In this document: piece by piece, positions 6,433-48,513 of the stretch
Position numbering within the stretch: position 1 is the first letter of the stretch
How the letters are laid out: every line of letters starts with the position of its first letter
NCBI RefSeq assembly: GCF_018263905.1
Contig: NZ_JAAFZU010000005.1
Coordinates: forward strand, 1-60,360
Length of the DNA: 60,360 bases
Direction of reading: 5' to 3'
Source of the DNA: Loktanella sp. SALINAS62
GTDB lineage: Bacteria; Pseudomonadota; Alphaproteobacteria; Rhodobacterales; Rhodobacteraceae
The notes under the pieces: model-generated
The model's input: the letters and a program-made list of their open reading frames with translations, nothing else
Told to the model about the DNA's origin: nothing
The model's database searches: none
Made by a program: the position numbers and the translations under genes

Positions 6433-6466
6433 GTGCGCAATGCGAACTTATGTTCGAATTTAGGTC
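6433..6466. promoter_or_regulatory. Operator A: tandem 15-bp palindromes
   Basis: GTGCGCAATGCGAAC (6433-6447), a 4-base spacer TTAT, then GTTCGAATTTAGGTC (6452-6466). The first copy matches the consensus well; the second matches mainly in its left arm. It lies upstream of the amino acid importer operon. The same arrangement recurs at seven other promoters in the window. Confidence 0.65.
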
Positions 6467-6483
6467 ACCGCTTTTCAAGTCTG

Positions 6484-7974
6484 TCAATCCCCGCCTGCAG
6501 ATTTCGTGCCGGATATATCGGCCTCAGCCTCGATTTCGACGTCATAGGGACCGATAAGATTGACCCCGGCGATCAAAGTGTTGGCCGGGCGAATGTCCTT
6601 GAGATAAAGGGCGTGGATGGCAGAAACCGCCTCCCAGTCCGCCTCGTGACGCAGGTAGATGCGGGTGCGCGTGACATCGTCGATCGATCCTCCCAGCGCT
6701 TCGATGGCCGCTGAAATCTTGTCCAGAATGAAGGTGGCCTGTGCCGCCGCGTCCCCGGAAGCGACGGGACTTCCGTCCGGTCCGGTCGCCGTCGTGCCGC
6801 TGACCGACACCCGGTCCCCGCTGCGCAGCGCGCGCGAGAAACCAGCCTTTTCTTCCCAGATCGAACCGCTCTCGGCGCGAGTCCGGCCCGGGCGGGCCGT
6901 GCTCTCAACGACTGGAAACACCGGCGCCATCGTCGCCAGATGATGGCTTAAATCACCCGAGGCAGTCAGAAACGGCGGCTTGCGATACTCATCGCCGCAA
7001 TCGCCCGGAATGGCGGGCATGGTGGACACGACGGCCTCGATCGCGGCGCGATCTTCGGGGTCGAGCACCAGCTCGAGGGCGCGCTTGTTGTCGCTGCGGT
7101 GCTCCCCCTCGCCCAGGCGGGCGCCGATGATAGTCGCGGTGATCGCGGGATGAGCCAGAGTCCATGCCGTGGCCACATTGCTGATCGAAACACCGTGCTT
7201 GTGCGCCACCTGCCCCAGAACCCCCAGCAGCTCCTGAAAGCGCGCCCAGCCGCCGCTTGCGTCGATGAAGCGCTTGTATTTCATCCGGCTCCAGTCGTCG
7301 ATCCGGTCCGGCTCTGCGACGCCAAGCCATTTGTTCGACAGGAACCCTCCACACAGTGTTCCGAAGGCGAAGATCGCGACGTCGTGTGCTTCGGCGACAT
7401 CGCTCAGCGCCCCTGCCGCGCGACAGTCCAAGAGCGAGAAACAGACCTGATTGGACGCCACCTCGATCCCCTCGCGAAGGACGAGGTTCAGGTGGGCCGC
7501 GTCGAAATTGGTCAGGCCGATCTCGCGGATCAGCCCCTCTTCGCGCAGTCGCATCAGATGTTTCAGCGCCGTGAGGTAGTTTGGCGATTCGTAGCGCCAC
7601 CAGTGGAACTGCATGACGTCGACGACCGGCAGGCCGAGGCGCTCGAGCGCCGTTTCCACAGCGCGCCGCACTGTCCCCTCGTCCATCGAGCCGGGTTCGG
7701 GGCACCATTTTGTCAGGATCGTCGGCGCCGGATCGCCAGCCTCTGTCAGCGCCTTGTGCGCCATGCCCGCCACGACTTCAGCACTGCCGTAGTGATCGGC
7801 CATGTCAAAGGTGTCAAAACCGTCTCGGGCGTAGTGCACCAGCGCCTGCGCCGCCGCGTCGAGGTCATAGGGTTTGCCGTCCCTCTCCTGATCGGCCATC
7901 TGCCACAGCCCCGTGACTAGCCGCCGCACCGGCACGTCTCGGCCAATCTTCGCTTTCTCTGACTTCAATCTCAT
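6484..7974 (-). CDS. Aldo/keto reductase fused to a RidA-like domain
   Basis: A 496-residue two-domain protein. Residues about 10-340 form an aldo/keto reductase: D57, Y62 (DMADHYGSAE), K89 (ILTKW) and H124 (MQFHWW) correspond to the catalytic tetrad, and TIIGARLGEGE fits the NADP-binding tail. Residues about 370-490 form a YjgF/YER057c/RidA domain (GDRVSVSGTTATG ... YDVEIEAEADI). In RidA the active arginine follows PA (PARST); here the text is RPANT, with N465 at that position, so imine/enamine hydrolysis may be lost. The ATG at 7974 is preceded by GGAGG; the open frame extends about 146 codons further upstream, but that part is antisense to the divergent gene. Divergent from the NAD-kinase-like gene, with an operator between. 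Confidence 0.85.
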   Translation of the reverse strand: MRLKSEKAKIGRDVPVRRLVTGLWQMADQERDGKPYDLDAAAQALVHYARDGFDTFDMADHYGSAEVVAGMAHKALTEAGDPAPTILTKWCPEPGSMDEGTVRRAVETALERLGLPVVDVMQFHWWRYESPNYLTALKHLMRLREEGLIREIGLTNFDAAHLNLVLREGIEVASNQVCFSLLDCRAAGALSDVAEAHDVAIFAFGTLCGGFLSNKWLGVAEPDRIDDWSRMKYKRFIDASGGWARFQELLGVLGQVAHKHGVSISNVATAWTLAHPAITATIIGARLGEGEHRSDNKRALELVLDPEDRAAIEAVVSTMPAIPGDCGDEYRKPPFLTASGDLSHHLATMAPVFPVVESTARPGRTRAESGSIWEEKAGFSRALRSGDRVSVSGTTATGPDGSPVASGDAAAQATFILDKISAAIEALGGSIDDVTRTRIYLRHEADWEAVSAIHALYLKDIRPANTLIAGVNLIGPYDVEIEAEADISGTKSAGGD

Positions 7975-7979
7975 GGCAA

Positions 7980-8013
7980 CCTCCTTTTGCGAACAAGTGT
8001 GCGCATTATAAAC
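7980..8013. promoter_or_regulatory. Operator B: half site plus 15-bp palindrome
   Basis: A right arm TTTTGCGAAC ends at 7994, then the 4-base spacer AAGT, then GTGCGCATTATAAAC (7999-8013). It lies between the divergent reductase-RidA and NAD-kinase-like genes and overlaps the ribosome-binding site of the former, so a bound regulator could shut both. Confidence 0.6.
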
Positions 8014-8053
8014 ACCGCGACAAGACGTTTTGCACAAAAGGAGCAATGCCGCG

Positions 8054-9166
8054 ATGAAAATAGGGTTGGTCGTCAATCCGATTGCCGGGCTGGGCGGGCG
8101 TGTAGGATTGAAAGGCACCGACGGGGCAGGAACGGCCTCCTTGGCGCTGGACCGTGGCGCCATTGCGCAATCTGGCCTGCGCACGCGCCGCGCGCTGCAA
8201 CGGCTGGCCGACCGGGTTCCCGATGCCGCACTCACCGTGGCGGCGGGAGACTTGGGCGAGACATGGGCCGTGGGGCTTGGCATGAACATGACCACCATCG
8301 ACCTGCCCGCGCCCACCGGCACACCGGACGACACAGATAAGGCGGTGCGCGCGATGGCGGCCTGCGATCTGATCGTTTTTGCCGGAGGCGACGGAACGGC
8401 GCGCGATGTCACCGCCGCCGTGTCCCCGAGTCAGGCGATTCTGGGAATTCCTTGCGGGGTTAAGATGCATTCGGGCGTGTTCGTCGTAACGCCCGAGGCG
8501 GCGGGGGCCCTGTTGGCGGATATACTGTTGAACCCCGATCAGGTGACTTGGAACGATGCGGCCGAAGTGATGGACATCGACGAACAGGCCCTGCGGGCGG
8601 GGCGTATCGCCCCGGTCCTTTATGGCCATGTCCGCGTGCCGAAAATGCGCAGCAGGATGCAGGCGGCCAAGGGTGGCCCTCGGATCTCGTCCGGCGCAGC
8701 GCTGGCCACCGCCGCCGCACAGATCGCCCGGCAGATGGACGAAGGCACCCTCTATGTCATCGGGCCCGGCACCAGCGCGGCCGCGGTGGTCGAGGCCACC
8801 GGACAGTCTTCGACACTTCTTGGCATCGACGTGATGTTGGACGGCGCCGTCATCGCGCGCGATGTGACCGCCGCGCAGATCGAAACTCTGACGGCAAAGC
8901 GCGCGGTGCGTGTCGTCCTTGGCGTGACCGGACAACAGGGGTTCCTGATTGGACGCGGCAATCAACAGATCAGCCCGGACGTTCTGAGGCGGGCGACCCG
9001 CGACGGCCTGATTATCCTAGCTTCCGAGGAAAAGTTGCGGGGCCTTGCGCAGCCGGTGCTCTGGATCGACAGCAGCGATCCGGACCTGGATGCGGAACTG
9101 GCGGGCTTTGTGCGGGTCCACACCGGTCAGGGCCGCCAAACGATGATGCGTCTATCTGCGGGTTGA
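8054..9166 (+). CDS. ATP-NAD kinase-family (AcoX-like) protein
   Basis: A 370-residue protein. MKIGLVVNPIAGLGGRVGLK at the N-terminus and LIVFAGGDGTARDV (about residues 111-124) match the GGDGT signature of the NAD kinase/diacylglycerol kinase fold. The length and C-terminal part agree with the AcoX-like ATP-NAD kinase family found beside catabolic operons rather than with housekeeping NAD kinase. True NAD phosphorylation has not been shown for most members, so its role here (cofactor supply for NADP-dependent reductases, or small-molecule phosphorylation) is inference. The ATG at 8054 has AAGGAG about 11 bases upstream. It is followed after 8 bases by operator C and then the P-protein-like genes. 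Confidence 0.8.
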   Translation: MKIGLVVNPIAGLGGRVGLKGTDGAGTASLALDRGAIAQSGLRTRRALQRLADRVPDAALTVAAGDLGETWAVGLGMNMTTIDLPAPTGTPDDTDKAVRAMAACDLIVFAGGDGTARDVTAAVSPSQAILGIPCGVKMHSGVFVVTPEAAGALLADILLNPDQVTWNDAAEVMDIDEQALRAGRIAPVLYGHVRVPKMRSRMQAAKGGPRISSGAALATAAAQIARQMDEGTLYVIGPGTSAAAVVEATGQSSTLLGIDVMLDGAVIARDVTAAQIETLTAKRAVRVVLGVTGQQGFLIGRGNQQISPDVLRRATRDGLIILASEEKLRGLAQPVLWIDSSDPDLDAELAGFVRVHTGQGRQTMMRLSAG

Positions 9167-9174: not shown

Positions 9175-9208
9175 GTGCGTTATGCGAACTTTTGTGCAAC
9201 TTTGAATT
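9175..9208. promoter_or_regulatory. Operator C: tandem 15-bp palindromes
   Basis: GTGCGTTATGCGAAC (9175-9189) is among the best matches in the window. It is followed by the spacer TTTT and a degenerate GTGCAACTTTGAATT (9194-9208). It lies 60-90 bases before the first P-protein-like gene, on the coding side of the preceding stop, and so gives that pair its own regulated promoter. Confidence 0.7.
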
Positions 9209-9266: not shown

Positions 9267-10673
9267 ATGCCCACACAGACCAAAGCCCACCCCTGGATGG
9301 CCCTGTCCGCCCCCGGTGTGATCGACGACATGCTCGCCGCCATCGGGGTGTCCGAAATCGCCGATCTGTTCGAACAGATTCCTCAGGATCATTTTCGCAA
9401 GACGCCAATCAAGATGCCGCCTGCCCTCACCTCCGAGATGGAGCTGCGACGCGATCTGGTTACACGCCTGAAACGCAACGGCGATTGCGAAAGCAACCTC
9501 AGCTTTCTGGGCGCGGGCGTATGGCAGCACCACGTTCCGGCCGTCGTCGACGAGATCGTCGGACGCACTGAATTCGCCACCAACGTCTGGGGCAGCTACC
9601 AATCCGACCACGGGCGCAATCAGGCGTGGTTTGAGTTTTCGTCGCAGCTGGGGGCGCTTCTGAACCTCGATGTGGTGCAATTGCCCGTCTATTCATGGGG
9701 CTGCGCGATCGGCCACGCCGTGCGGATGGCGACGCGCATGACAGGTCGTACCAAGGTGCTGATGCCGCGCCTGTCGGACCCGGAGCGCCTGTCGGTCATC
9801 CGCACCTACTGCCAACCGACCGAAATGGACGGCAGCATCGACGTCGTCATGGTGGCCGCAGACCCAAAGACCGGACGCCTTGATCTGGCCGATCTTGCCT
9901 CGAAACTCGGTGATGATGTTGCGGCGATCTATTTCGAGAACCCCGCCTACCTCGGCACGATCGAAACAGAAGCCGCGCAGATCGCAAAGCTGGCCCGCGC
10001 TGCGGGGGCCGAGACCATCGTCGGCGTCGATCCGGTCAGCCTTGGCGTGATGATGGCGCCGGGGGATTACGGGGCCGATATCGTCACCGGACCCGTGCAA
10101 CCCCTTGGCGTGCATATGCAATGCGGTGGCGGTGCGGGCGGGTTCATCGCCTCGCGCGATGAAGAACGCTACGTGCGCACCTACAACGGGTTTTTGGTGT
10201 CCATCGCGGACACCGCTCGCGACGGCGAATTCGGCTTCGGTCTCGCCTGTCCGCACCAGAATTCCTACGGAATGCGGGAGGACGGCAATGACTGGACCGG
10301 CAATTCCACCTACCTATGGGCCATCGCCGGTGCGGTCTACATGAGCCTTCTGGGCCCCGACGGATTTGCAGAATTGGGCCGCCTGATCGTGTCGCGGGCG
10401 CGCTACGCCGCGCGGATGATCGACGCGCTTCCGAATGTCTCGGTCCAATGGCCGGACCGGCATTTCAAGGAATTCGTCGTCAACTTCGACGCCACGGGCC
10501 GCAGCGTATACGACATCAACGACGCCTTGCGCGCGCAGGGCATCTTTGGCGGAAAGGATATTTCCGGCGAGGAATCCAACCTTGGCCAATGCGCGCTTTA
10601 CTGCGTCACCGAAATTCACACCGCCGCCGACATCCGCAGACTGACCGACACCTTGAAGGAGATCCTCGCATGA
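9267..10673 (+). CDS. Glycine dehydrogenase subunit 1-like (GcvPA family), divergent
   Basis: A 468-residue member of the GcvPA half of the split glycine decarboxylase P-protein. Family marks are FLGAGVWQHHVPAVVDEI near residue 80, AAIYFENPAYLGTIE, GADIVTGPVQPLGVH and AGAVYMSLLGPDGFAELGRL. Two stretches normally near-invariant in true GcvPA, the YTPYQPEISQG loop and the EKATSNICT segment, read here as WGSYQSDHGRNQAWFEF and MREDGNDWTGNSTY. That suggests a changed substrate pocket. AGGAGG precedes the ATG at 9267; the frame extends further upstream without homology. The stop overlaps the next gene's start as ATGA. No GcvT, GcvH or lipoamide dehydrogenase gene is present in the window. Confidence 0.8.
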   Translation: MPTQTKAHPWMALSAPGVIDDMLAAIGVSEIADLFEQIPQDHFRKTPIKMPPALTSEMELRRDLVTRLKRNGDCESNLSFLGAGVWQHHVPAVVDEIVGRTEFATNVWGSYQSDHGRNQAWFEFSSQLGALLNLDVVQLPVYSWGCAIGHAVRMATRMTGRTKVLMPRLSDPERLSVIRTYCQPTEMDGSIDVVMVAADPKTGRLDLADLASKLGDDVAAIYFENPAYLGTIETEAAQIAKLARAAGAETIVGVDPVSLGVMMAPGDYGADIVTGPVQPLGVHMQCGGGAGGFIASRDEERYVRTYNGFLVSIADTARDGEFGFGLACPHQNSYGMREDGNDWTGNSTYLWAIAGAVYMSLLGPDGFAELGRLIVSRARYAARMIDALPNVSVQWPDRHFKEFVVNFDATGRSVYDINDALRAQGIFGGKDISGEESNLGQCALYCVTEIHTAADIRRLTDTLKEILA

Positions 10674-12223
10674 GCCGCTTGCCAGAGTTTCACGCGGCCA
10701 AATGGGACGAGCCGGTCGTCATGGAGCTGGGTCGCCCCGGCGGGCGCGGCCAGATTTTTCCGGCACCCGAGGACGAGGTTGCCCAAGACGTCGGAGACGA
10801 CCTGATCCCCTCCTCCATGATGCGCAAGGATCGCCCGGTGCTGCCCGAAATCACCGAGTTCGAGGCCCAGCGCCACTACCTGCACCTAAGCCAGATGACG
10901 CTTGGAATGATGGGCGTCAGCCTGTTCGGCACCTGCACGATGAAATACAACTCCAAGACATCGGAATACGCGACGCTGCGCCCCGAACTGGCCGAGGTCC
11001 ATCCCTACCAGCACCCCGACACGCTTCAAGGTGTGTTAAGCATCATCCATGATTTCGACCACATCCTGCGGTCCCTGTCGGGGATGGATCAGTTCATCTT
11101 TCAGGCCGGCGGCGGGGCGGATGCGGCCTATACGATGGCCATCGTCGCGCGCGCCTATTGGGCCGACCGTGGTCTGCTGGATCAGCGCACCGAGATGGTG
11201 ACCTCCATTCAGGCGCACCCGTGCAATCCAGCCACGGCCGCCGCGGCAGGTTTCAAGGTGGTAAACCTGCCCCTGGAAGAGAACGGTTATCCGTCGCTGG
11301 ACGCCCTGAAGGCCGCCGTCAGCGACAAGACCGCCCTGATCATGATCAACAATCCCGACGACATGGGCATCTACAACCCCGAGATCAAGGAATGGGTCCG
11401 TGTCGCCAAAGAGGCAGGTGCGTTGTGTTTCTACGATCACGCGAACTTCAACGGCGTCATGGGCAAGCTGTCCGCGCGCGAGCTTGGGTTCGATGCCTGC
11501 ATGTTCATGCTGCATAAGACCTTCGGCGCGCCCAAGGCGGGCGGCGGTCCCGCTGTCGGTGCGTTCGGCTGTTCGGATGAGCTGGCCCAATATGTCCCCT
11601 GCCCTGTCGTCACGAAAGCCGGTGCGCGATACATCCTCGATGAAGACCGCCCGAAATCGGCGGGAAAGGTCCGCGAATTCTGGGGCAACGTGCCGCAAGT
11701 CGTGAAGGCCTACGCCTGGGCGCGCGGCATGGGTGCGGACGGCATCAATCTGGCCTCCGACATCTCGGTGGTTGCCAACAACTACATGGACAAGCGCCTG
11801 TCGGAGATACCCGGCATCGCCATTTCGAACCCCGACATCACGGCCAACCGCATGGAGATGAGCCGCTGGTCGTTCGCCCCCCTGTGCGAGGAAACCGGCA
11901 TCGGAACGGTCGACGTCGCCAACCGGATGGCCGACTACGGCATCGACCCGTTCTGGATGAGCCACGAGCCGTGGATCGTCGCGGAGCCGTTCACACCCGA
12001 GGCGGGCGAGCTTTGGTCAAAAGAGGACATTGATCTGTGGATCGACGTCATTGCCAAGATCGCCGACGAGGCCCGCACGGACCCCGAAATGGTCAAGTCC
12101 GCGCCACACAACCAGCCCGTGGCGCAGGTCAACGGCGACGTTTTCGAAGATCCGGGCAAATGGGCGATGACGTGGCGGGCCTACCTGCGCAAGGTCGCTT
12201 CCGCCAAGGCGAACGGCAGCTGA
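10670..12223 (+). CDS. Glycine dehydrogenase subunit 2-like (GcvPB family), PLP-binding, divergent
   Basis: A 517-residue GcvPB-type subunit. The PLP lysine is K283 in MLHKTFGAPKAGGGPAVG. Other family marks are LFGTCTMKYNSK, EVHPYQHPDTLQGVLSIIHD and ALIMINNPDDMGIYNPEIKE. In glycine decarboxylase this subunit decarboxylates glycine and hands the aminomethyl group to lipoylated H-protein. Here the late motif usually reading PPTVYFPLIVPEA is replaced by DPFWMSHEPWIVAEPFTPEA, and no H-protein is encoded nearby. The pair may therefore use a different amino acid or acceptor; that is inference. Start and stop overlap the GcvPA-like gene, so the two are coupled. It converges on an FAD oxidase gene with 20 bases between the stops. 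Confidence 0.82.
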   Translation: MSRLPEFHAAKWDEPVVMELGRPGGRGQIFPAPEDEVAQDVGDDLIPSSMMRKDRPVLPEITEFEAQRHYLHLSQMTLGMMGVSLFGTCTMKYNSKTSEYATLRPELAEVHPYQHPDTLQGVLSIIHDFDHILRSLSGMDQFIFQAGGGADAAYTMAIVARAYWADRGLLDQRTEMVTSIQAHPCNPATAAAAGFKVVNLPLEENGYPSLDALKAAVSDKTALIMINNPDDMGIYNPEIKEWVRVAKEAGALCFYDHANFNGVMGKLSARELGFDACMFMLHKTFGAPKAGGGPAVGAFGCSDELAQYVPCPVVTKAGARYILDEDRPKSAGKVREFWGNVPQVVKAYAWARGMGADGINLASDISVVANNYMDKRLSEIPGIAISNPDITANRMEMSRWSFAPLCEETGIGTVDVANRMADYGIDPFWMSHEPWIVAEPFTPEAGELWSKEDIDLWIDVIAKIADEARTDPEMVKSAPHNQPVAQVNGDVFEDPGKWAMTWRAYLRKVASAKANGS

Positions 12224-14362: not shown

Positions 14363-15124
14363 TCATCTGATGTAGGCCGCGCCGTTCAGATCGATCGTCG
14401 CGCCCGTCAGATGGCGGGCGCGACCGGTGGCCAGAAACACAGCCGTCTCGGCAATATCCGACGGTGGCACCCATTCGCCCATGGGCAGTGTTGCGGTGAC
14501 CGCGTCGACCCCGCCGGTTTTTTCCGCGCTGGCGACCGACATCTGGGTGCCCACGACGCCCGGCGAGATGACATAGGCGAGAATGCCGTGTGCCGCGTAA
14601 TTGCGCGCCACGGTTTTGGTGGCGGCCGAAATCGCGGCCTTCGATGCGGCATAGGCAATCGCGCCGGGGTTGCTGGTGCCCCGGGTCGAGACCCAGCTTC
14701 CGATCCCGATGATCGCCCCCATTTGATTTGCCTCGAGCCAGTCGCGCACAGCGTGGCGCATAAGGCGCGCGGGCGCGGTCACATTAACGGCGAGCGCTTC
14801 TGTCCAGACGGCATCCCATTCGTCAATCGGGTCGCTGATGCCCCCGGTCTGTCGCATGATGCCCGCGTTGTTAACCAAGACGTCTATTCGCCCCCCCGCG
14901 GCGGCTCGTGCCTCTTTCCAGAACGCATCGACCGCAGCCATTTCAGACAGGTCTGCTTGCAGAAGCGTCGCCTTTCCGCCTGTTGCAGCCTCTGCCCCTG
15001 CCCGGTCGCCCCCATAGTGGGCGATCACGGTTGCGCCAGCATCCACCATCGCCTGCGCAGTCGCGGCACCGATGCCCTTGGACGCGCCTGTGACGAGAAC
15101 GGTTTTACCTGTCAGATCGTCCAT
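14363..15124 (-). CDS. Short-chain dehydrogenase/reductase (1)
   Basis: A 253-residue classical SDR with cofactor motif TGASKGIG (about 13-20), VNNAG, catalytic S in IGIGSWVS and YAASK, so an active NAD(P)H oxidoreductase is expected. It overlaps functionally with the OYE gene upstream: the OYE stop and this ATG are separated by three bases, so the two are translated from one transcript. The substrate is probably an alcohol or keto intermediate of the local pathway; the family does not specify it. Confidence 0.88.
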   Translation of the reverse strand: MDDLTGKTVLVTGASKGIGAATAQAMVDAGATVIAHYGGDRAGAEAATGGKATLLQADLSEMAAVDAFWKEARAAAGGRIDVLVNNAGIMRQTGGISDPIDEWDAVWTEALAVNVTAPARLMRHAVRDWLEANQMGAIIGIGSWVSTRGTSNPGAIAYAASKAAISAATKTVARNYAAHGILAYVISPGVVGTQMSVASAEKTGGVDAVTATLPMGEWVPPSDIAETAVFLATGRARHLTGATIDLNGAAYIR

Positions 15125-15127
15125 GTT

Positions 15128-16228: not shown

Positions 16229-16286
16229 GTGTTTGTAACACCTTTCACAAATGAGATTGATCCGCTTTGCGGTCGCGTTATAGGGT

Positions 16287-16320
16287 GTGCGTTATAGTAA
16301 CCTTTGTGCGTTATTTGAAC
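16287..16320. promoter_or_regulatory. Operator D: tandem 15-bp palindromes
   Basis: GTGCGTTATAGTAAC (16287-16301), spacer CTTT, GTGCGTTATTTGAAC (16306-16320). Both copies are recognisable, making this one of the clearest tandem pairs. It sits between the divergent OYE/SDR unit and the isomerase-like gene. Confidence 0.72.
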
Positions 16321-16356
16321 ATGACGCAGAAACCCTGACAAGCAGAAAGCTCGAAA

Positions 16357-17951: not shown

Positions 17952-17986
17952 CGACACGCCTCCTATTCTTGTTCACAAGGTACGCG

Positions 17987-18020
17987 TTGATTGTTTCGCA
18001 CAGTTGTACGTTATGTGAAC
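17987..18020. promoter_or_regulatory. Operator E: tandem 15-bp palindromes
   Basis: TTGATTGTTTCGCAC (17987-18001, right arm only), spacer AGTT, GTACGTTATGTGAAC (18006-18020). A further GTTCA arm lies at 17971. The site lies between the divergent SDR gene and the three-gene dehydrogenase/oxidase unit starting at 18041. Confidence 0.6.
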
Positions 18021-18040
18021 AAATACAAGGATATCCGTAA

Positions 18041-22758: not shown

Positions 22759-22792
22759 GAACAACTATCGCACAATAGTTCGTTATGCGAAC
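22759..22792. promoter_or_regulatory. Operator F: tandem 15-bp palindromes at the regulator gene
   Basis: GAACAACTATCGCAC (22759-22773, right arm matches), spacer AATA, and a perfect palindrome GTTCGTTATGCGAAC (22778-22792). It lies between the IclR gene and the 12-gene operon beginning with a binding protein. This is the best copy in the window and serves as the reference consensus. Confidence 0.75.
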
Positions 22793-32358: not shown

Positions 32359-32361
32359 TCC

Positions 32362-34076: not shown

Positions 34077-34080
34077 ACCC

Positions 34081-37696: not shown

Positions 37697-37698
37697 CG

Positions 37699-38757: not shown

Positions 38758-38783
38758 GCTTGCCAACCTCCAGACACAGGAAT

Positions 38784-38817
38784 GTTCGCATTACGAACAA
38801 AAGTTCTTTGAATGTAA
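38784..38817. promoter_or_regulatory. Operator G: tandem 15-bp palindromes
   Basis: GTTCGCATTACGAAC (38784-38798) is a perfect GTTCG/CGAAC palindrome. The spacer AAAA follows, then a weak GTTCTTTGAATGTAA (38803-38817). It lies between the divergent transporter operon and its binding-protein gene and close to the former's ribosome-binding site. Confidence 0.7.
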
Positions 38818-38930
38818 AGTCATCTTTGCTAGCATTAAAGAAGTTTTACTGCCGCCGTTTGTCAAGGCATCAGAATCGGCCCTGACTGTTCAGGTTCCGT
38901 CGACGTTCGATCCAACATGGAGTTTCAATC

Positions 38931-40600: not shown

Positions 40601-41281
40601 TTACTCGTCGCTGAAAATCTGCGGATACATGAACCGGATCGCGGCGGCGTCCATCTCGGTCTTGAACGGGTGCTGACCCGGCAATGCAAGGGCACGCTGC
40701 GCAGCAGGCCGCTCGTTCAGCTCGTCCATAAGACCTTTGATGTTGGTGAAGCCTGCTGCGGAGTCGTTGTCCAGCATGAACGGAATACGCGGCGCCCACC
40801 CCCAAACCGCCATGTCGACGATGGTATAGTCATCGCCCAGCATATAGCGTCCCTTGCCCAGCTGGTCGTCTATGATCTGCCAATGACGGCGCGCCTCAAA
40901 GCGGTATCGCTTGACGGCATACGGGCTTTTGTCGACGGCGAAATGCTGGAAATGCACCGCTTGCCCGGAATACGGCCCGACGCCGGAGGCCACGAAAAAA
41001 AGCCACGACAACATCGGTCCGCGCAAAGCGGCATCTTGCGGCAGAAAAGTTCCTGTCTTCTCGGCCAGATAAAGCAGGATCGCATTACTATCAAACAGTG
41101 ACACCCCGTCGTCGATCAGCGCCGGCAGCTTGGCGTTCGGATTGATCGACAGGAATTCAGGCGTGTGCTGCTGGCCCAGTTTGGTGTCCAACGGTTTGGC
41201 GCGATACACAAGGCCGCTTTCTTCAAGGAACAGCGCCACCTTCATCGGGTTCGGGGCGGCGTTGAAATAGAAATCAATCAT
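40601..41281 (-). CDS. Glutathione S-transferase family protein
   Basis: A 226-residue GST. The N-terminal thioredoxin-like domain has NPMKVALFLEESGLVYRAKP, INPNAKLPALID and the glutathione-contacting DSNAILLYLAEKTG. The C-terminal helical domain has MLGDDYTIVDMAVWGWA. It resembles YghU/YfcG-like GSTs. Monocistronic, between two terminators, with no operator copy seen in front. It may detoxify an electrophilic intermediate or act as a reductase; this is inference. Confidence 0.88.
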   Translation of the reverse strand: MIDFYFNAAPNPMKVALFLEESGLVYRAKPLDTKLGQQHTPEFLSINPNAKLPALIDDGVSLFDSNAILLYLAEKTGTFLPQDAALRGPMLSWLFFVASGVGPYSGQAVHFQHFAVDKSPYAVKRYRFEARRHWQIIDDQLGKGRYMLGDDYTIVDMAVWGWAPRIPFMLDNDSAAGFTNIKGLMDELNERPAAQRALALPGQHPFKTEMDAAAIRFMYPQIFSDE

Positions 41282-41316
41282 TGGATGTACTCTCGGGGAT
41301 GCGTGAAAAATGAAAA

Positions 41317-41355
41317 ACCGCGCCCGCCGTCCATGGTCGGACAGGCGCGCGCGGT
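41317..41355 (-). terminator. Probable terminator of the second peptide-type transporter operon
   Basis: On the minus strand ACCGCGC pairs with GCGCGGT around a long, partly self-complementary loop and runs into TTTTTC. It lies 30 bases after the stop of the M24 hydrolase gene and before the GST gene. Confidence 0.6.
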
Positions 41356-41386
41356 CTGGAGGTGTCAGTCCGGTCCCGACATCAGG

Positions 41387-42535
41387 TCATTCGATGATGA
41401 TCAGGTCCTGAAATCCGGATGTCAGCGCCTCGCCACCGTGGGGGCGGGCAACGATGCAATCCTCGACACGGGCGCTGACCGATCCGTCCTGGAAGATCGA
41501 CGGCTCGATCGTAAAGATCATCCCTTCTTCGACCATTGTCTTGTCGTCCTTGGTCAGGAATGGCGGTTCGTGAACGTCCCACCCGATCCCGTGACCCAAA
41601 CGGTGGCGGAACTTGTCGCCGTAGCCAGCGTCATCAATGACGTCGCGTGCGGCTTTGTCGACCGCTTCACATGTGACCGAACCGGACTTAAGCGCCTCGA
41701 TGCCGGCACGTTGGCTGTCCATGATCAGCTTATGAACCAGCACCTGTTCCTCGCTCGGCTGCCCGAAGCAGACCGTGCGCCCAAAGTCGTAGCACATCCC
41801 GTCCAGGATCGCGCCGAAATCGAACAACACAGATACCGGCGGCGTCAGCACCCGGGGCCAGCTCGCTAGTTTATCCCCGAACTTTAGCGGGTGGTTCGGC
41901 CCGGTGTTATAAAGCGACGTGGTGAAAGACGGCCCCAGAGAGCCGTGCTTTTTCATCTGGTAGTCGATCTCGGAAACGGCATCGAGTTCGGTCATCCCGA
42001 TCTTCATCTGCGCCACTGTCGCGGCAAACGCTTTTTCGGTAATCACTCCGGCCGCCCGCAGCTTTTCGATCTCGTCCGCATCCTTGATCACCCGCATAGG
42101 GCGCAACAGATCGGTGCCAGAGGCAAAGCGCACGCCAGAGATCAGGTTTTGCAACTCAATCAGAGATTCAGCCTCGGCATCGTCGCTGACCGCAACGGTG
42201 GCGCCATCTTTGACGTTCAGGTCGGCGATGATCTTGCGCACCATGTCGCGCGGGTCATCCCAGTCGCCCAAGACCCGCACGTCCATGCCATCGGTGCCTC
42301 CGATCTGTCCGAACTCCGCCGTCATACGCGGCAGCGTCAGGATCGGGTCGCGGCCGGGCGCGATCCACATGCCCTCCAGCCACATTCCGGGATGCAAGTT
42401 GCGTCCATAGGTCGGAATTTCGCGGTGAATGCCGGTCACATAATCCAGATCGGTTCCCATCGGGAAAAAGATCAGATCGGCCTTGCCGTCGATCAGTCCG
42501 AGAAACTTTTTCATTCTTTGTGCATAGCTAGCCAA
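41387..42535 (-). CDS. M24 peptidase-family hydrolase (Xaa-Pro aminopeptidase/creatinase fold)
   Basis: A 382-residue pita-bread-fold protein. All five metal ligands can be placed: D239 and D250 (VLFDFGAILDGMCYDFGRT), H315 (RLGHGIGWDVHE), E344 (FTIEPSIF) and E358 (SARVEDC). The fold covers prolidases, but also creatinase and ectoine hydrolase, so hydrolysis of an imported small amide is as likely as of a Pro-peptide. The start is taken as TTG at 42535, since AAGGAG lies 7 bases upstream inside the end of the ATPase gene; ATG at 42514 is the alternative. Last gene of the importer operon, which implies action on the imported compound. Confidence 0.87.
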   Translation of the reverse strand: MASYAQRMKKFLGLIDGKADLIFFPMGTDLDYVTGIHREIPTYGRNLHPGMWLEGMWIAPGRDPILTLPRMTAEFGQIGGTDGMDVRVLGDWDDPRDMVRKIIADLNVKDGATVAVSDDAEAESLIELQNLISGVRFASGTDLLRPMRVIKDADEIEKLRAAGVITEKAFAATVAQMKIGMTELDAVSEIDYQMKKHGSLGPSFTTSLYNTGPNHPLKFGDKLASWPRVLTPPVSVLFDFGAILDGMCYDFGRTVCFGQPSEEQVLVHKLIMDSQRAGIEALKSGSVTCEAVDKAARDVIDDAGYGDKFRHRLGHGIGWDVHEPPFLTKDDKTMVEEGMIFTIEPSIFQDGSVSARVEDCIVARPHGGEALTSGFQDLIIIE

Positions 42536-43529
42536 TTGAAAACTCCTTTTTGGCATCTGTCTCGAAAAGGTGGCAGGCCGCCTGACGGCCAGCTGCGATG
42601 TCGCGCAACAAGGGGCGTTCGGTGGAGCACCGCGCGTGTGCCAGCGAGCAACGCGGGTGGAAATGGCAGCCTTTGGGGGGATTGATCGGTGACGGAATGT
42701 CACCCTTGATGGGCGCGTAAACGGTGCGGCGACGGTCCAACCTCGGCACGCCGTCGATCAGAGCACGGGTGTAGGGGTGTTGCGGGCTCGCGAAAATCTC
42801 CTCCGCAGGTCCGCTTTCGACGATCCGGCCAAGGTACATCACCACGATCCTGTCAGAGATATGTTCGACCACTCCAAGGTCGTGACTGATGAACACATAG
42901 GTCAGGCCGAATTCATCCCGCAGGTCCATGAACAGGTTCACGATCTGCGCTTGGATCGAGACATCGAGCGCGGACACCGCCTCGTCACACACGAGGATTT
43001 CGGGCCGGACGGCCAAGGCCCGCGCGATCCCGATACGTTGGCGCTGACCGCCGGAAAACTGGTGGGCGAACCGGTCACGGTAGCTCTTGTCGACGCCGCA
43101 TCTCTCCATCATATCGGCGACATGGGCGTCAAGATCCGGGCGCGGCACGATGCCATGGACGCGCGGCGCTTCACCGATCAGCTCCGACACGCGTTTGCGC
43201 GGGTTGAGGGATGAAAACGGATCTTGGAAAATCATCTGCATCGGCAGTGCACCGCTGGTGGCCCCGCTGGCTTTCGCGACAACTTCGCCTTCGGACGGCT
43301 CGAGCAGGCCAGCGACCATGCGCCCCAGCGTGGACTTGCCGCATCCGGATTCGCCTACAACGCCAAGGACCTCGCCCTTGTGTAAATCGAACGACACATC
43401 CTCGACCGCGTGCACCACCGCACGCGGTGCGGCCAAGCCCAGCCGGTTGAGCCCACGGGCAATCAGATCGCCGCGTCCGCCGAAGCGTTTGGTCACATTG
43501 CGGACAGACAGGATCACCTCATCGCCCAT
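42528..43529 (-). CDS. Oligopeptide-type ABC transporter ATP-binding protein (OppF/DppF)
   Basis: A 333-residue ATPase with GESGCGKST, FSGGQRQRIGIARALAV, ILVCDEAVSALDVSIQ and the C-terminal oligopeptide-permease domain with paired cysteines (GCHFHPRCSLAHARC). The Walker B region reads DEAVSALD rather than the usual DEPTSALD, a tolerated change. The ATG at 43529 with GGAG upstream overlaps the OppD-type gene by 16 bases. Confidence 0.9.
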   Translation of the reverse strand: MGDEVILSVRNVTKRFGGRGDLIARGLNRLGLAAPRAVVHAVEDVSFDLHKGEVLGVVGESGCGKSTLGRMVAGLLEPSEGEVVAKASGATSGALPMQMIFQDPFSSLNPRKRVSELIGEAPRVHGIVPRPDLDAHVADMMERCGVDKSYRDRFAHQFSGGQRQRIGIARALAVRPEILVCDEAVSALDVSIQAQIVNLFMDLRDEFGLTYVFISHDLGVVEHISDRIVVMYLGRIVESGPAEEIFASPQHPYTRALIDGVPRLDRRRTVYAPIKGDIPSPINPPKGCHFHPRCSLAHARCSTERPLLRDIAAGRQAACHLFETDAKKEFSIG

Positions 43530-44500
43530 AATGCGCGCTCCATCAAAGGATGGAAACAGCGCACCGAACGCGTCGGACCAAAGGCTTCCATATCGGGAAG
43601 TGCGGCGCAGGCCGCCGTTGCATGCTCGCAGCGCGGCGCGAAGGAACACCCGTCGGGCAGATCCGCCAAAGATGGCATCCGTCCGGGGATTTGGTTGAGC
43701 CGCTTACCGCGTTGGCCGCGGGCCGGAACGGACTCGATTAGTCCGCGCGTGTAAGGGTGCGCTGGCGCATCGAGCAGGTCATCGACGGGGCCCACCTCGA
43801 CCACGCGGCCTGCATACATCACCGCCAGACGGTCGGCGATGCCGGCCACAACAGCCAGATCATGGGTGATCCAGATCAGGGCGGTGCCCCTGTCACGGCA
43901 CAAGCCCTGCACCAGTGACAGGATCTGGCCCTGAATGGTGACATCGAGCGCTGTCGTCGGCTCATCGGCAATGATCACGTCGGGCTTGTGCAGCAGGGCG
44001 ATGGCGATGGCGACCCGCTGCCGCATGCCGCCGGACAGTTCATGGGGGTAGCTGCGCAGGCGGCTTTCGGGGGCCGGAATGCCGACCTCGTCCAATGCGG
44101 CGATGGACCGTTTGCGCGCCTCTGCCTTGCCAATCTTTTCATGCGCGCGCAACGCATCGCGCATCTGTGTCTCGATCCGCAGCACGGGATTGAGCGTCAT
44201 CATCGGGTCCTGAAAGATCATCGCGATCCTCCGACCACGCAACTTGCGCATCTTTTCTTCGCTCAAAGTGAGCACATCTTCTCCGTGCAGCATCACCTGC
44301 CCGCCCACCACCTCACCGGGAGGGCTGATCAGCCGGTTGATAGAAAATCCGGTCAAAGTCTTGCCTGATCCGCTTTCTCCAACGAGCCCGAGGATTTCCC
44401 CCTTTGCGACAGACAGCGATACCCCTTGCAAAGCCGCGACTGTCAGCCCTGGCGTGATGAACGACGCGTAAAGATCCTTGACGTTTAGAACGGCTGTCAT
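43514..44500 (-). CDS. Oligopeptide-type ABC transporter ATP-binding protein (OppD/DppD)
   Basis: A 328-residue ATPase with [44 protein letters not shown] and the cysteine-containing tail [15 protein letters not shown]. Full OppD length. It works with the OppF-type protein encoded next. Confidence 0.9.
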
Positions 44501-44510
44501 GTGCGGGTCC

Positions 44511-45401
44511 TCACAGTCGCGGGTTCAGAATATCGCGCAGGCGGTCGCCCAGCACATTGGCGCTGATGATAATGGCAAGCAGCACGACACCTGGCAGGAC
44601 ACTGATCCAGTAGCGGCCCGATTGCAGGTAATCGAAGCCGTTCGCGATCAGCAGACCCAGCGACGGCCGCGTCGGCGGCAACCCAAGGCCAAGGAACGAC
44701 AGCGTCGCCTCGAGCGAGATCGCCATCGCCATCTGCATGGTCGCGACCACCAGAATAGTGGGCAGGCAATTGGGCAGGATGTGCAGGAACAGAATACGCA
44801 TCCCGCCAAGCCGCAGCCCGCGTGCCGCGTCCACATATTCACGCGCCCCTTCGACAAGAGCGACGCCGCGCACAGTACGCGCGAAATAGGCCCATTGCAC
44901 GACGACCAGCGCGAAAATGATCTTGTCGACGCCGCGCCCCAAGATGACCAGCAGGATCAGCGCGACCAGAATGGTCGGAAACGACAACTGCAAATCGACG
45001 ATCCGCATCAGCAGGGTATCGACCCAGCCTCGACGGTAGGCCGCAATCAGGCCGACAAACGTGCCGAACACCAGCGCAAGAACCCCCGACAACAACCCAA
45101 CGATAAGCGAAATGCGGATCCCGTAAAGCATCGCGCTGAGCATATCACGCCCCTGCCCGTCCGTGCCGAGCCAATAGGTCAGCCCCGTATAGCTCACGCT
45201 GCCCGGAGGCATGAGGCTATCCAGGATATCGACCTGTCGCAGGTCATAGGGGTTTTGCGGCGCGATCCACGGGGCCCCAAAGCCAAGGATGCAGAACAGA
45301 ATGAACACGCTTAAAGCGATGACCGCACTGGGGACGGACAGAAACCGGCGCGCCAGTTCGCGCGGCGAGCCTGCGATGGGTGCGTGCGACAGCGTGGTCA
45401 T
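44511..45401 (-). CDS. Oligopeptide-type ABC transporter permease (OppC/DppC)
   Basis: A 296-residue permease with PSAVIALSVFILFCILGFGA as first helix, WLGTDGQGRDMLSAMLYGIR and the coupling loop DAARGLRLGGMRILFLHILP; ends in LRDILNPRL as usual for OppC. Overlaps the OppB-type gene by 4 bases (ATGA). Confidence 0.9.
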   Translation of the reverse strand: MTTLSHAPIAGSPRELARRFLSVPSAVIALSVFILFCILGFGAPWIAPQNPYDLRQVDILDSLMPPGSVSYTGLTYWLGTDGQGRDMLSAMLYGIRISLIVGLLSGVLALVFGTFVGLIAAYRRGWVDTLLMRIVDLQLSFPTILVALILLVILGRGVDKIIFALVVVQWAYFARTVRGVALVEGAREYVDAARGLRLGGMRILFLHILPNCLPTILVVATMQMAMAISLEATLSFLGLGLPPTRPSLGLLIANGFDYLQSGRYWISVLPGVVLLAIIISANVLGDRLRDILNPRL

Positions 45402-46375
45402 GTCTGGTTGCCCCCCAGCCGTACTCGCGGATCAAGGAGCGAATACAGGATATCCACCAGAAGATTCAGGACCACGAACATGAAGACCACGAAAATCAGG
45501 TAGGCGACGATCAGCGGACGGTCGAGGACCCCGATCGCATCAATGAGCATCTTGCCCACCCCCGGCCAGCTGAAGATGGATTCCACCACCACCGCAAAGG
45601 CGATGACACCGCCGAATTCCATGCCGAGCACCGTAACGATCGGGATCAGCAGGTTTTTCATTACGTGGGTCGACAGGATACGCCGTTCACGGATGCCATT
45701 GGCGCGGGCGAACTTGATGTAATCGGCAAAAATCACTTCGCGCATCCCCGCACGCGTCAGCCGGATAACAATCGCCATCATGATCAGCGATAAGGTGAAG
45801 GCGGGCATGGCCAGATGGTGCAGCCCGTCGGGGGTCAGCAGGCTCAGGTCCGCGCCGAACACCTCGACCGTGTCACCGCGCCCGATGGCGGGCATCCAGC
45901 CGAGTTGAACCGAAAACGTCAGAATCATGATCAGACCGATCCAGAACACCGGAAGAGAGAAAGCGATCATCGAAAACGCCATGATGCAGCGGCTGATGAA
46001 GGTGTCGGGCCGCAGTCCGGCCCAGACGCCCAAGGGCAGCCCGATGCCAAGCGCAAGGGCCAGCGCGCAAAAGGCGAGCTCCAGCGTGGCAGGCAACCGC
46101 TCGAAGATCAGAGACAGGGCCGGAATGCCGTGGGTAAAGGAATTGCCCAGATGGCCTTGCAGCAGGTTCCCTAGAAAAACGAAGTATTGCTCCCACAGCG
46201 GGCGGTCCAGCCCCAGCTCCGCGATGGTTTTCGTCAGGCAAGCCTGATCGCATTCGGATGAGGCAAAGATGTAGACCGGATTTCCGATCACGTTGACGCC
46301 GAAGAATACCAGCACTGTCATGACAAACAGGACGATCATCGCCTGTAGCACGCGTTTGATGATAAATTCCGTCAT
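45398..46375 (-). CDS. Oligopeptide-type ABC transporter permease (OppB/DppB)
   Basis: A 325-residue permease starting MTEFIIKRVLQAMIVLFVMT, with LGLDRPLWEQYFVFLGNLLQ, FARANGIRERRILSTHVMKN as coupling loop and the C-terminal YSLLDPRVRLG. It follows the binding-protein gene by 28 bases. Confidence 0.9.
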   Translation of the reverse strand: MTEFIIKRVLQAMIVLFVMTVLVFFGVNVIGNPVYIFASSECDQACLTKTIAELGLDRPLWEQYFVFLGNLLQGHLGNSFTHGIPALSLIFERLPATLELAFCALALALGIGLPLGVWAGLRPDTFISRCIMAFSMIAFSLPVFWIGLIMILTFSVQLGWMPAIGRGDTVEVFGADLSLLTPDGLHHLAMPAFTLSLIMMAIVIRLTRAGMREVIFADYIKFARANGIRERRILSTHVMKNLLIPIVTVLGMEFGGVIAFAVVVESIFSWPGVGKMLIDAIGVLDRPLIVAYLIFVVFMFVVLNLLVDILYSLLDPRVRLGGNQT

Positions 46376-46403
46376 CTTTTCCTTGCCTCACCCGGTGTTG
46401 TGG

Positions 46404-48011
46404 TTAGTCGACCCGCGATACATCCATCGCCATGGTGCGTTCATTGGTCCGTGGCTGATGCTCGAGACCGGCGCGCATGGCCCAGTTGTTCACCTGGAAG
46501 TGAAGCGGGATATAAGCGTAGTCATCCATGCCGATGGTGATCGCCTCTTGCAGCAGGCGCAGGCGCTCATCGGCATCCACCATCTGCTTGGCCAGAACCG
46601 ACCGCGCGTCGATTTCGGGGTTGGAATATCGGCCGAAGTTGCCGTTTCCGCCGCCCGTCGCCGCGTTATACGTCTCGAGCGTGCCGGACACGGTATAGGT
46701 CGCCTCGCCCGCCACAGTGCCCCAGCCCGTCAGGGACATGGAGAACTCCGGCACATCGAAACCCGGGATCGTCAGTTCATCGCCACGGATCAAGCGCGAA
46801 AAGAAGATGTTGCGCGGCATGGCGTCGACTTCGGTGGTGATACCGACACGGCTCCACATCTGTGCGACCACTTCGAGGATGCGGGCATCGTTGACATAAC
46901 GGTCGTTGGGACCGTGCAGCACGATGTTGAACCCGTCGCCATAACCCGCCGTCTCGAGCAGGGCCTGTGCCTCCTCGAGATCGTAGGGGTCCGCTTCGAG
47001 CGCGTCGACGTAGCCGAAAAAGCCCGGTGGAACGATGTTGCGCGTCGGCAAGGACGCCCCGCCCATGACACGGTCACGGATCGTCTCGCGGTCGATGGCA
47101 AGGCTGAGAGCGCGGCGCACACGCCAGTCACGCAACGGGTTGGGCACCATGACGTTGCCATCGTTGTCGGTGATGAACGGCTCGACATGCTTGTAGCCGG
47201 GCATCAGATAGATCAGCCGGTCCGCCGGAATGGTCGAGACGGTGAAGTCGGGATCTTCCTGAAGTTGCGGCAAATCAATGGTCGGCGGATAGTCGATCAT
47301 GTCGACGTCGCCGTTCAGCAGTGCGGCCAGACGCGATGCATCCTGCGTGATCGGACGGAACACCACTTGATCCCACTCGATCTCTCCGCCCCACCAGTTC
47401 GGATTCTGAACGACGCTGGCAAGGTTGCCCGGGCTGTATTCCTCGAACATGAATGGGCCGGTGCCGATCGTCGCAAGGCCGCTGTTGAAATCGACCGATT
47501 CCGTCACTCCGGTGGCGGCGTGTTCGGCCACGATCGCCAGCATGGCAAGGTCTTCTGCAACGGTGGGATAAGGTTCGGACGTGGTGATGTGAATGGTGTA
47601 GTCGTCAATCCGCTCCCACTGCTTGGCCCCTTTTTCCAAGTGGAAGGCTGGCGAGGCAGGCGCGCCGGAAATTCCTGCCCGCAGGCGGTCGAACGAAAAG
47701 ATGACGTCGTCGGCATTGAACACTTCGCCGTCATGCCACGTCACACCTTCGCGCAGCTTGAATTCCCACGTCAGCTCGTCGATGGGCGCCCACGAGACGG
47801 CGAGGCCAGGAATGGGCTGCGACGTCGCATCTAGCGCGACCAGCTTCTCGAAAATATGTTCATGCACCTGAACGTCAGCGGACAGCTGGGTCCAATGGGG
47901 ATCGAGCGAACTGGTTTCGGACCGCACGCCGATCGTCAGGACCTCTTGCGCGGCGACTGGCAGGGCCAGCATCACGGCCGCGGCAAACAGGCCGGGTTTC
48001 AGAAAGGTCAT
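46404..48011 (-). CDS. ABC transporter substrate-binding protein, family 5 (peptide/opine)
   Basis: A 535-residue periplasmic protein with the Sec signal MTFLKPGLFAAAVMLALPVA (cleavage near VAAQE), VTWHDGEVFNADDVIFSFDR and WRVRRALSLAIDRETIRDRV. SBP_bac_5 family; only distantly like the protein at 38931, so the two importers probably take different ligands. First gene of a six-gene minus-strand unit that ends with the M24 hydrolase; operator H lies about 165-200 bases upstream. Confidence 0.9.
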   Translation of the reverse strand: MTFLKPGLFAAAVMLALPVAAQEVLTIGVRSETSSLDPHWTQLSADVQVHEHIFEKLVALDATSQPIPGLAVSWAPIDELTWEFKLREGVTWHDGEVFNADDVIFSFDRLRAGISGAPASPAFHLEKGAKQWERIDDYTIHITTSEPYPTVAEDLAMLAIVAEHAATGVTESVDFNSGLATIGTGPFMFEEYSPGNLASVVQNPNWWGGEIEWDQVVFRPITQDASRLAALLNGDVDMIDYPPTIDLPQLQEDPDFTVSTIPADRLIYLMPGYKHVEPFITDNDGNVMVPNPLRDWRVRRALSLAIDRETIRDRVMGGASLPTRNIVPPGFFGYVDALEADPYDLEEAQALLETAGYGDGFNIVLHGPNDRYVNDARILEVVAQMWSRVGITTEVDAMPRNIFFSRLIRGDELTIPGFDVPEFSMSLTGWGTVAGEATYTVSGTLETYNAATGGGNGNFGRYSNPEIDARSVLAKQMVDADERLRLLQEAITIGMDDYAYIPLHFQVNNWAMRAGLEHQPRTNERTMAMDVSRVD

Positions 48012-48513
48012 CTATAGTGTCCTCCGTGTTGTATAAAGGGAGCGACCCCCGCCCCACATGTGAAACGGCTGCGCGTGACGGATGACATTGCCTTCAAAAT
48101 CGCCGCCTCGATTCGTGATTATTTACCGTCAGTAAAATTATTTTAGTGGTGAAGTGGCGGCCGTGTCCATCGATAATTCATATTGCGAACAAAAGTTCGT
48201 ATATGCAACACTTTGAATCTCTCATGAGAGTCCTCCGAAAATGCGGCAGGAAACTGACAATCTGATTATAAATATTAATTTATTACAACATTTTGGCAAA
48301 AAATACGTTGACCTCGGCCCCCCACTGAAGGTTTTGACCGTGCCGCCTGATGACGTACCTTCACGGCGCTCTAACGGGTTGAGGCGACCGTCGAGTGCGC
48401 TATCGTAACTTCTGTACTCAAGACGTGCGGCGGCACACCCATCCGGTTTCTTTAGTCAGGATCGGGCACATATGCGTCCTCGCCTCTCACTTTGAACAGA
48501 AAGCAGTCCCTCA
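48012..48513. other. 502-base divergent intergenic region
   Basis: Separates the peptide-type importer operon (minus) from the second OYE gene (plus). It contains operator H at 48176-48209, an AT-rich block around 48255-48305 and no coding frame that looks real. The left part should hold the importer promoter. The right part has no operator copy, so the OYE gene may be controlled differently. Confidence 0.6.
48176..48209. promoter_or_regulatory. Operator H: tandem 15-bp palindromes
   Basis: ATTCATATTGCGAAC (48176-48190), spacer AAAA, GTTCGTATATGCAAC (48195-48209). Inner arms are perfect (CGAAC, then GTTCG); outer arms are degenerate. Upstream of the second peptide-type importer. Confidence 0.68.

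Follow-up and report, generated by a model that had tools for sequence, protein, structure and literature searches.

Which regulator controls a catabolic island of about 46 kb, and through which operators, is the question raised by the window analysed here, that is, the first 60,360 nt of contig NZ_JAAFZU010000005.1 of Loktanella sp. SALINAS62 (assembly GCF_018263905.1), which are part of a 3.83-Mb genome and carry the island at about 3.4 to 49.6 kb. Eight 34-bp sites (15+4+15 bp) with a common palindromic motif occur in the island, and they are very probably the operators of the one IclR regulator encoded there, by which nearly the whole island would be controlled. The sites are named here by their first coordinates (6433, 7980, 9175, 16287, 17987, 22759, 38784 and 48176). 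They had been proposed from the sequence in an earlier reading, and all of them were found again at the same coordinates and between predicted genes, as called by codon usage. Wholly intergenic 34-bp positions make up 3.0% of the region 3408-49620, and the chance of placing eight out of eight sites there is about 1e-12 if placement is blind to genes; the original prediction had picked intergenic sites, whereas the profile search described below used no annotation.

The operator consists of a 15-bp palindrome near GTKCG-N5-CGMAC with an AT-rich centre, accompanied by a third half-site, GTKCG, exactly 4 bp off. Numbered from the strong copy, boxes 1 to 4 show mean matches to GTKCG of 4.25, 4.88, 4.50 and 2.38 in the window and of 4.24, 4.81, 4.24 and 2.09 in 67 matches from orthologous loci, compared to 1.6 for random sequence; the latter means were computed before any matches were dropped, and orienting the matches by the better third box biases the value of box 3 upward. 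The strong copy is the second one at 7980 (7999-8013), 17987 (18006-18020) and 22759 (22778-22792). If either side of 60 strong 15-mers is examined without presupposing a spacing, the flanking half-site at spacing 4 reaches a mean of 4.58 of 5, with 85% of the cases at 4 or more, whereas at every other spacing between 0 and 20 the share is 0-12%, and in the opposite orientation it never exceeds 17%. The conserved unit is therefore the palindrome plus the third half-site. The palindrome GTNCG-N5/6-CGNAC of the IclR group-1 operator is present exactly at four of the eight sites (6433, 9175, 22759 and 38784) and imperfectly at the others, and the third half-site stands beside it in alternating direction, as defined for three-box sites. 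The original prediction had seen a second copy or half copy of the palindrome at 4-bp spacing and proposed two dimers per site. While the resulting 19-bp offset is confirmed, the second copy mostly amounts to one half-site, and full copies are a minority. In the window, a full fourth box is only present at 16287, where it also scores 5/5 in 10 of 15 orthologous matches; elsewhere this box scores close to random, apart from a weak one (3/5) at 48176, whose second copy is fairly strong. Two palindromes with centres 18-22 nt apart are accordingly clear at 16287 and roughly recognisable at 48176, and the more distant relatives G010 and G043 (G and L numbers are our handles for genomes and loci) carry two full palindromes at or near iclR. 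A two-dimer arrangement would thus suit 16287 and the iclR regions of G010 and G043, but three half-sites are present elsewhere.

The motif is concentrated in the island when the genome is searched with the complete signal. The window has a single exact copy of the 15-mer, at the IclR gene, where the original prediction had placed the best copy, and the site at 22759-22792 is also the top-scoring site of the genome in the profile search. The pattern GTNCGYWATNYGAAC has seven matches in the genome, six of them in the window, and none in a backwards control. A 15-bp matrix trained on nine strong copies from the window detects eight tandem sites above 14 at an offset of 19, compared to 0-2 at every other offset between 15 and 26. 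In addition, a profile (R1) was built from other genomes: from the 67 matches scoring above 13, seven were dropped because of a third box under 3 and two (L028:4092 and L013:831) by hand, and the 58 kept matches provided 49 distinct site sequences. In the search of the Loktanella genome with R1, the best 150 of 569 first-look candidates were scored, so that weak matches may be missing. All eight sites were recovered at E values from 5e-5 to 0.65, and among the matches listed at E ≤ 10 there were two further places, C78:374470 (E 0.77) and C53:4027 (E 0.84), both inside long open reading frames (ORFs). The pattern GTKCGN5CGMACN4GTKCG without mismatches has two matches in the genome, both in the window. 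Taken together with the searches of related genomes, these counts indicate that the full motif does not occur at random density elsewhere.

Several observations weigh against such a clear-cut picture. The weakest site (9175) scores about like the two places outside the island. The half-sites alone yield 12 genome matches with one mismatch, 2 in the window and 10 elsewhere, and 133 matches with up to two mismatches versus 85 in the backwards control. Allowing up to three mismatches, the 15-mer by itself occurs six times in the window compared to 1.63 times in shuffled sequences, and 1 of 100 shuffles reaches six matches. Moreover, the window matrix was used to pick the orthologous sites behind R1, and the two models are therefore not fully independent. 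Because the half-sites without the AT-rich centre are not specific, this centre belongs to the signal, and because the bare 15-mer is only modestly above chance in the window, the argument depends on the broader tests. The same counts for half-sites and the bare 15-mer are what may be cited in favour of chance palindromes, or of promoter-like or REP-like repeats without any common regulator. We regard this reading as extremely improbable and rejected it in view of the concentration of the full motif in the island, its fixed spacing, its conservation where the flanks are mostly not conserved, and its chance-level occurrence in 57 relatives without the regulator (see below).

The proposed owner of the sites is the product of iclR, located at 21753-22622. 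The protein contains the domains PF09339 (HTH_IclR, 52.4 bits) and PF01614 (IclR_C, 141.9 bits), and its score of 301.8 bits with TIGR02431 exceeds the curated cut-off of 284.75 bits, which agrees with its earlier assignment to the PcaR/PcaU/PobR branch. The nearest solved structures include 2ia2 and PcaR (8eju). No pca or pob enzymes were detected among the 50 proteins of the window that were scanned (NCBIfam, best 25 families per protein), and the sole link to the beta-ketoadipate pathway is the family name of a BKACE enzyme, 3-oxoadipate:acetyl-CoA acetyltransferase. On this ground, we do not file the protein as an orthologue of PcaR, PcaU or PobR.

Relatives of this IclR protein with 66-83% identity were found in 24 loci, mostly under names of the Rhodobacteraceae type, though names like Microvirga and Hoeflea also occur. 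A copy above 15 or a tandem match above 13 is present in 23 of these loci, while the remaining one (L019) only extends 38 bases upstream of the match. All 23 loci holding the region upstream of the regulator gene have a site in it, 21 of them above 15; the site in L026 scores 13.2, and that in L033 is a tandem match only. These sequences are related, and their counts do not represent independent events. In the alignment of the iclR site, no strongly conserved block is longer than the operator, and the alignments at 22759, 17987 and 16287 show the motif retained where most of the flanking sequence is not. The best matches to the regulator in eight genomes from the same genus have E values of about 1e-25 to 1e-17 and 25-29% identity; none of them is a close relative, and the distribution of the island is thus patchy. 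Among 60 relatives searched with R1, matches at E ≤ 0.01 were only listed for G010, G032 and G043, which are the three with an IclR protein of 46-57% identity, and each has a site adjoining that gene. The other 57 relatives show no listed match at E ≤ 0.01 and 12 matches at E ≤ 0.2 compared to 11.4 expected by chance, a count that is a lower bound in view of the stricter filters and of 115 or fewer best candidates scored per genome. This co-occurrence is the strongest argument that the sites belong to the regulator. Together with the positions of the sites, it supports the original proposal that the regulator controls the four importers and most enzyme units, and binding of the sites by the IclR protein appears likely.

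Another regulator might instead read some or all of the sites, for example the XRE-cupin protein (34586-35170), whose gene is part of the dpp1 unit beside site 38784, or the second IclR-like protein elsewhere in the genome; a weaker relative of the same subfamily is encoded at C22 (140.7 bits). However, no tblastn match to the XRE-cupin protein was listed (E ≤ 1e-15) in 20 site-keeping stretches from eight genomes, the listed sites at E ≤ 0.01 in the 60 relatives occur only together with an IclR relative, and a site abuts iclR in 23 of 23 loci holding the upstream region. Other regulators were rejected for these reasons, and we consider them improbable.

The assignment to the IclR protein also agrees with wider stretches of eight genomes, in which, despite changes in gene order, the sites adjoin the modules that have them in the window. 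Counterparts of site 6433 precede the same binding-protein gene in G061, G062, G066 and G075; those of 7980 are found in G061, G062, G068 and G071, and in G067 beside the NAD-kinase-like gene only; those of 9175 in G061, G062, G063 and G071; and those of 48176 before dppA2 in G068 and G071. In G066, the amino-acid importer adjoins the NAD-kinase-like gene. Another Dpp importer, provided with a site of its own, is found in G066, G067, G068 and G071 (binding protein 30-31% identical to that of dppA2). Not every module has a site everywhere, as none was listed at gcvPA in G067, G068 and G075. The site G063:141100 was grouped with the AKR-Rid/NAD-kinase sites (AKR, aldo-keto reductase), but in G063 it stands between a GST and a NAD-kinase-like gene. 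For 29 further sites, the best-scoring register within 25 bp was taken, which biases the scores upward, and genomes were searched for 15 of the 24 orthologous loci, their main sites belonging to the training set. The epimerase-like gene was detected in 11 other genomes among 292 searched from the same taxonomic order (own included), and 10 of these 11 have a copy above the preset value of 12 in 3.8 kb, directly beside the gene in nine. L121 has a site at SDR2/HCDH (HCDH, hydroxyacyl-CoA-dehydrogenase-like protein) and its other copy (12.1) inside the epimerase gene; the two best copies of L120 score 11.9, just under the preset value. From the eight wider stretches and the loci of the distant relatives, related genomes thus retain genes and sites together. 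The original prediction had named random density elsewhere and genes kept without sites as refuting outcomes, and neither was observed.

Sites are also present on two plasmids used in none of the models, pAMI4 of Paracoccus aminophilus and pRA01 of Roseicitreum antarcticum. The gap between the regulator and importer genes carries a site on both. Further sites are found on pAMI4 at SDR2/HCDH and GcvPA/NAD-kinase, and on pRA01 at epimerase/OYE (OYE, old-yellow-enzyme-like reductase), with weaker ones in front of genes for TRAP and TTT importers. On pRA01, the matrix alone recognised the TRAP (3657) and epimerase/OYE (25651) sites, and R1 alone the TTT site (E 0.022); because the reversed control of pRA01 gives three matches above 11, single weak sites there are uncertain. 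The weak sites of pRA01 lie at L126:3574-3772, L126:37030-37163 and L126:38617-39050, before TRAP, TTT and succinate-semialdehyde-dehydrogenase genes, and suggest that exchanged importers acquire the operator. Both plasmids carrying the island are large, and pAMI4 (L125) is typed as mobilizable, pRA01 being L126. The plasmid location and the lack of a close IclR relative in the eight same-genus genomes point to horizontal spread. It is conceivable, though less likely than not, that the operator defines an undescribed catabolic regulon with a conserved enzyme core and exchanged importers, in which newcomers gain the same three-box operator and the boxes might pair alternatively as a two-sided switch at divergent promoters. 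The exchanged importers would comprise the amino-acid-type ABC, Ugp-type and different Dpp-type systems and perhaps TRAP and TTT systems. Judging from organism names, the hosts presumably belong to the Rhodobacterales and Hyphomicrobiales, some of them carrying the regulon on large plasmids.

The position of the operators relative to promoters bears on the mode of control. Promoters were scored with -35 and -10 weights, and the overlap test counts the strong copy and the following bases only, missing -10 places in the preceding copy. Site 16287 contains the -10-like TCAAAT of the OYE promoter. Its leftward promoter has a TTG-type -35 (TTGTCA in 11 of 15 sequences), a 16-18-bp spacer and TCAAAT or a variant in the operator region in 14 of 15 sequences, L022 being the one without it, and 12 of 15 are scored as overlapping by the script's count. 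The overlap with the -10 is offered as the reason why box 3 reads GTTAC at this site. On the other strand, TTGAAC-16-TATAGT or a similar arrangement places a second -10 in the other copy in 9 of 15 sequences. The -10 of the top promoter overlaps the operator in 12/15 and 1/15 sequences on the two strands at 16287, in 11/16 and 0/16 at the iclR site, and in 12/16 and 3/16 at 17987. Site 7980 ends 6 bp from the AKR-Rid start codon and is therefore located at or downstream of any ordinary promoter of this gene, which suits repression; its weak half overlaps CCTCC, a Shine-Dalgarno-like sequence on the minus strand adjoining that start. PcaR represses from a box over the -10 or downstream of it and activates from an upstream box (PMC12455658). 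Considering the operator over the -10 at 16287, the position of 7980 and the behaviour of PcaR, repression lifted by an acid effector is the most likely mode, and we regard the regulator as probably a repressor.

Some points speak against repression throughout the island. The rightward promoter of the window's own 16287 site has its -10 just outside the operator, a constant hexamer pair is present at 16287 only and the promoter calls elsewhere are weak, and the operator at iclR is possibly located upstream of the promoter of this gene, a position that would permit activation. The IclR protein could accordingly read the sites as an activator, with operators upstream of unrecognised start sites. 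PcaU and PobR are activators of their catabolic operons. The IclR family includes activators (PMC8222616), and relatives of the subfamily activate or repress by operator position, PcaR itself changing its mode in this way (PMC12455658). Yet the -10 of the best leftward promoter inside the operator at 16287 (12 of 15 sequences) and the end of 7980 so close to the AKR-Rid start suit repression, and we think activation rather unlikely. In the favoured repressor mode, the IclR protein would bind the eight operators across the island and repress the importers and enzymes by covering the -10, and a pathway intermediate, probably a small carboxylic acid, would bind the regulator and lift the repression. 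For a small carboxylic acid as the effector class we see about even chances. Of five positions of the PcaR succinate pocket that were mutated in PMC12455658 (Y151, T177, S240, N257 and S259), four are identical in the island protein in an alignment judged by eye, S259 being replaced by glycine, and this hints at a small carboxylate.

The operator is of a known kind, the tandem and three-box IclR sites described in PMC8222616. Tandem palindromes 18-22 nt apart are predicted there for 94 of 181 IclR groups and three-box sites for 32 of 181, with PcaU, PobR and HmgR as three-box cases. The operators of these three share with the island sites the 15-bp palindrome GTNCG-N5-CGNAC, the alternating boxes and an external half-site that is a direct repeat of the first box. 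Whereas the third box is needed for binding by PcaU (PMC8222616), the likeness of the island sites is one of sequence. Other than with these regulators, the island targets are not genes for beta-ketoadipate, 4-hydroxybenzoate or homogentisate metabolism, and eight promoters are involved; the usual scope of an IclR regulator is its own gene plus one or two neighbouring operons, and regulogs range from 1 to 55 COGs (PMC8222616). PcaR of Pseudomonas putida belongs to the same subfamily and has very similar half-sites (site GTTCGATAATCGCAC; PMC12455658). Its structure with succinate (PDB 8eju) scores 185.5 bits with the island protein, but its target genes are different. The tandem sites, which PMC8222616 explains by citing tetramer binding (Lu et al. 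2010), have the 19-bp centre-to-centre distance in common with the island, but most island sites only contain half of the second palindrome. TtgV (PDB 2xrn and 2xro), although a member of the IclR family, is distant from the island protein (56 bits). It controls efflux, not catabolism, and we take it to be the subject of the tetramer work. The novelty lies in this specific regulon, in its size and in its conservation, and the group may already be among those predicted in PMC8222616.

The operators, the regulator gene and the target units are compiled in Table 1. Units started by a site hold 41 of the 44 genes called in 3408-49620 (assigned by hand, the GST gene being tentatively included), and each of the four ABC importers (one amino-acid type, one Ugp type and two Dpp type) has at least one unit beginning at a site. 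As a further point against control of the entire island, the genes at 12244, 13407 and 48514 have no clear site. The candidate ninth site before the latter is absent from the listed matches of the profile.

Table 1. Operators, regulator gene and target units of the catabolic island (positions in the window; E values and bits from the profile search)
Feature	Coordinates	Strand	Context	Evidence
Three-box operator	6433..6466	+	upstream of amino-acid-type ABC importer (5547-6359 to 3408)	E 0.004
Three-box operator	7980..8013	-	between AKR-Rid fusion gene (-) and NAD-kinase-like gene (+)	E 0.15
Three-box operator	9175..9208	+	upstream of gcvPA-gcvPB; third box GTGCA	E 0.65, weakest of the eight
Four-box operator	16287..16320	-	between OYE-SDR (-) and epimerase-like TIM-barrel gene (+)	E 0.005
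Three-box operator	17987..18020	-	between SDR2 (-) and HCDH/SoxA-like/SoxB-like operon (+)	E 5e-4
Three-box operator	22759..22792	-	between iclR (-) and Ugp-type ABC importer operon (+)	25.1 bits, E 5e-5
Three-box operator	38784..38817	+	between dppB1 (-) and dppA1 (+), first Dpp-type importer	E 0.003
Operator	48176..48209	+	upstream of dppA2 (second Dpp-type importer, M24 peptidase)	E 4e-4
Candidate weak ninth site	48395..48428	+	86 bp upstream of second OYE gene (48514)	tandem score 10.0
iclR, proposed regulator	21753..22622	-	PcaR/PcaU/PobR branch; ORF reaches 22709 with TTG start	
Target unit: amino-acid-type ABC importer, 4 genes	3408..6359	-		family scans
Target units: AKR-Rid fusion (-), NAD-kinase-like (+)	6484..9166	both		family scans
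Target unit: gcvPA-gcvPB	9267..12223	+		family scans
Target units: OYE1-SDR1 (-), TIM-barrel epimerase-like gene (+)	14363..17196	both		family scans
Target units: SDR2 (-), HCDH-SoxA-like-SoxB-like (+)	17193..21756	both		family scans
Target unit: Ugp-type ABC importer, DapA-like, two SDRs, aminotransferase, succinate-semialdehyde-dehydrogenase-like, BKACE, deacetylase-like, GAF	22867..34575	+		
Target units: XRE-cupin regulator and dppFDCB1 (-), dppA1 (+)	34586..40520	both		family scans
Target unit: dppABCDF2, M24 peptidase, perhaps GST gene	40601..48011	-		family scans

The eight sites are very probably bound by the IclR protein, which would make the island a jointly controlled unit. About 41 genes of obscure joint purpose would then form a single regulon that can be tested, since the regulator is named, the operators are exactly placed and hosts can be cultivated, and finding the inducer of the operator would be a direct route to the substrate of the pathway. 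The island may also show how importers get recruited under an existing operator, and it provides a natural set of orthologous three-box sites for probing the proposed alternative dimerisation of IclR proteins.

The enzymes encoded in the island, with functions assigned by family scans, include gcvPA-gcvPB, the AKR-Rid fusion, the NAD-kinase-like protein, a FAD oxidase of the sarcosine/glycine-oxidase type, a SoxA-like/SoxB-like pair, two DapA-like aldolases, four SDRs, two OYE reductases, the epimerase-like TIM barrel, the HCDH protein, a class III aminotransferase, a succinate-semialdehyde-dehydrogenase-like protein, the BKACE enzyme and a deacetylase-like protein. As clues to the substrate, family scans and solved-structure searches (three enzymes) yield broad classes only. 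Mycosporine-like amino acids, which are glycine-bearing marine compounds, are no more than a guess; among the papers listed for them, no title or abstract opening mentioned such a gene cluster, and no paper combining at least four of six features (five of the island, and Rhodobacter) was found.

The AKR-Rid gene (6484-7974) fuses an aldo-keto reductase domain (18-315) to a Rid/RutC-like domain (377-485), and the fusion is retained with near full-length matches of 66-78% identity in G061, G062, G068 and G071. Neither gcvT nor gcvH accompanies the gcvPA-gcvPB pair, whether among the genes called in the island or in the annotated parts of pAMI4 and pRA01. Either glycine is set free in the pathway, or the two proteins act on another substrate. 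Whereas the other divergent pairs of the island are separated by an operator, none lies between the glycine-oxidase-like and DapA-like genes (12244-14360), whose divergent starts are 11 bp apart. The BKACE gene (32362-33189) scores 492 bits against its family's cut-off of 350 bits, and among the matches listed, it is present in the stretches of one of the eight compared genomes (G061). Outside the island, an ORF of 324 amino acids (51325-52299) resembling lactate permease matches only positions 7-202 of a 530-position profile and looks truncated; it is adjoined by a 2-hydroxyacid-dehydrogenase-like gene.

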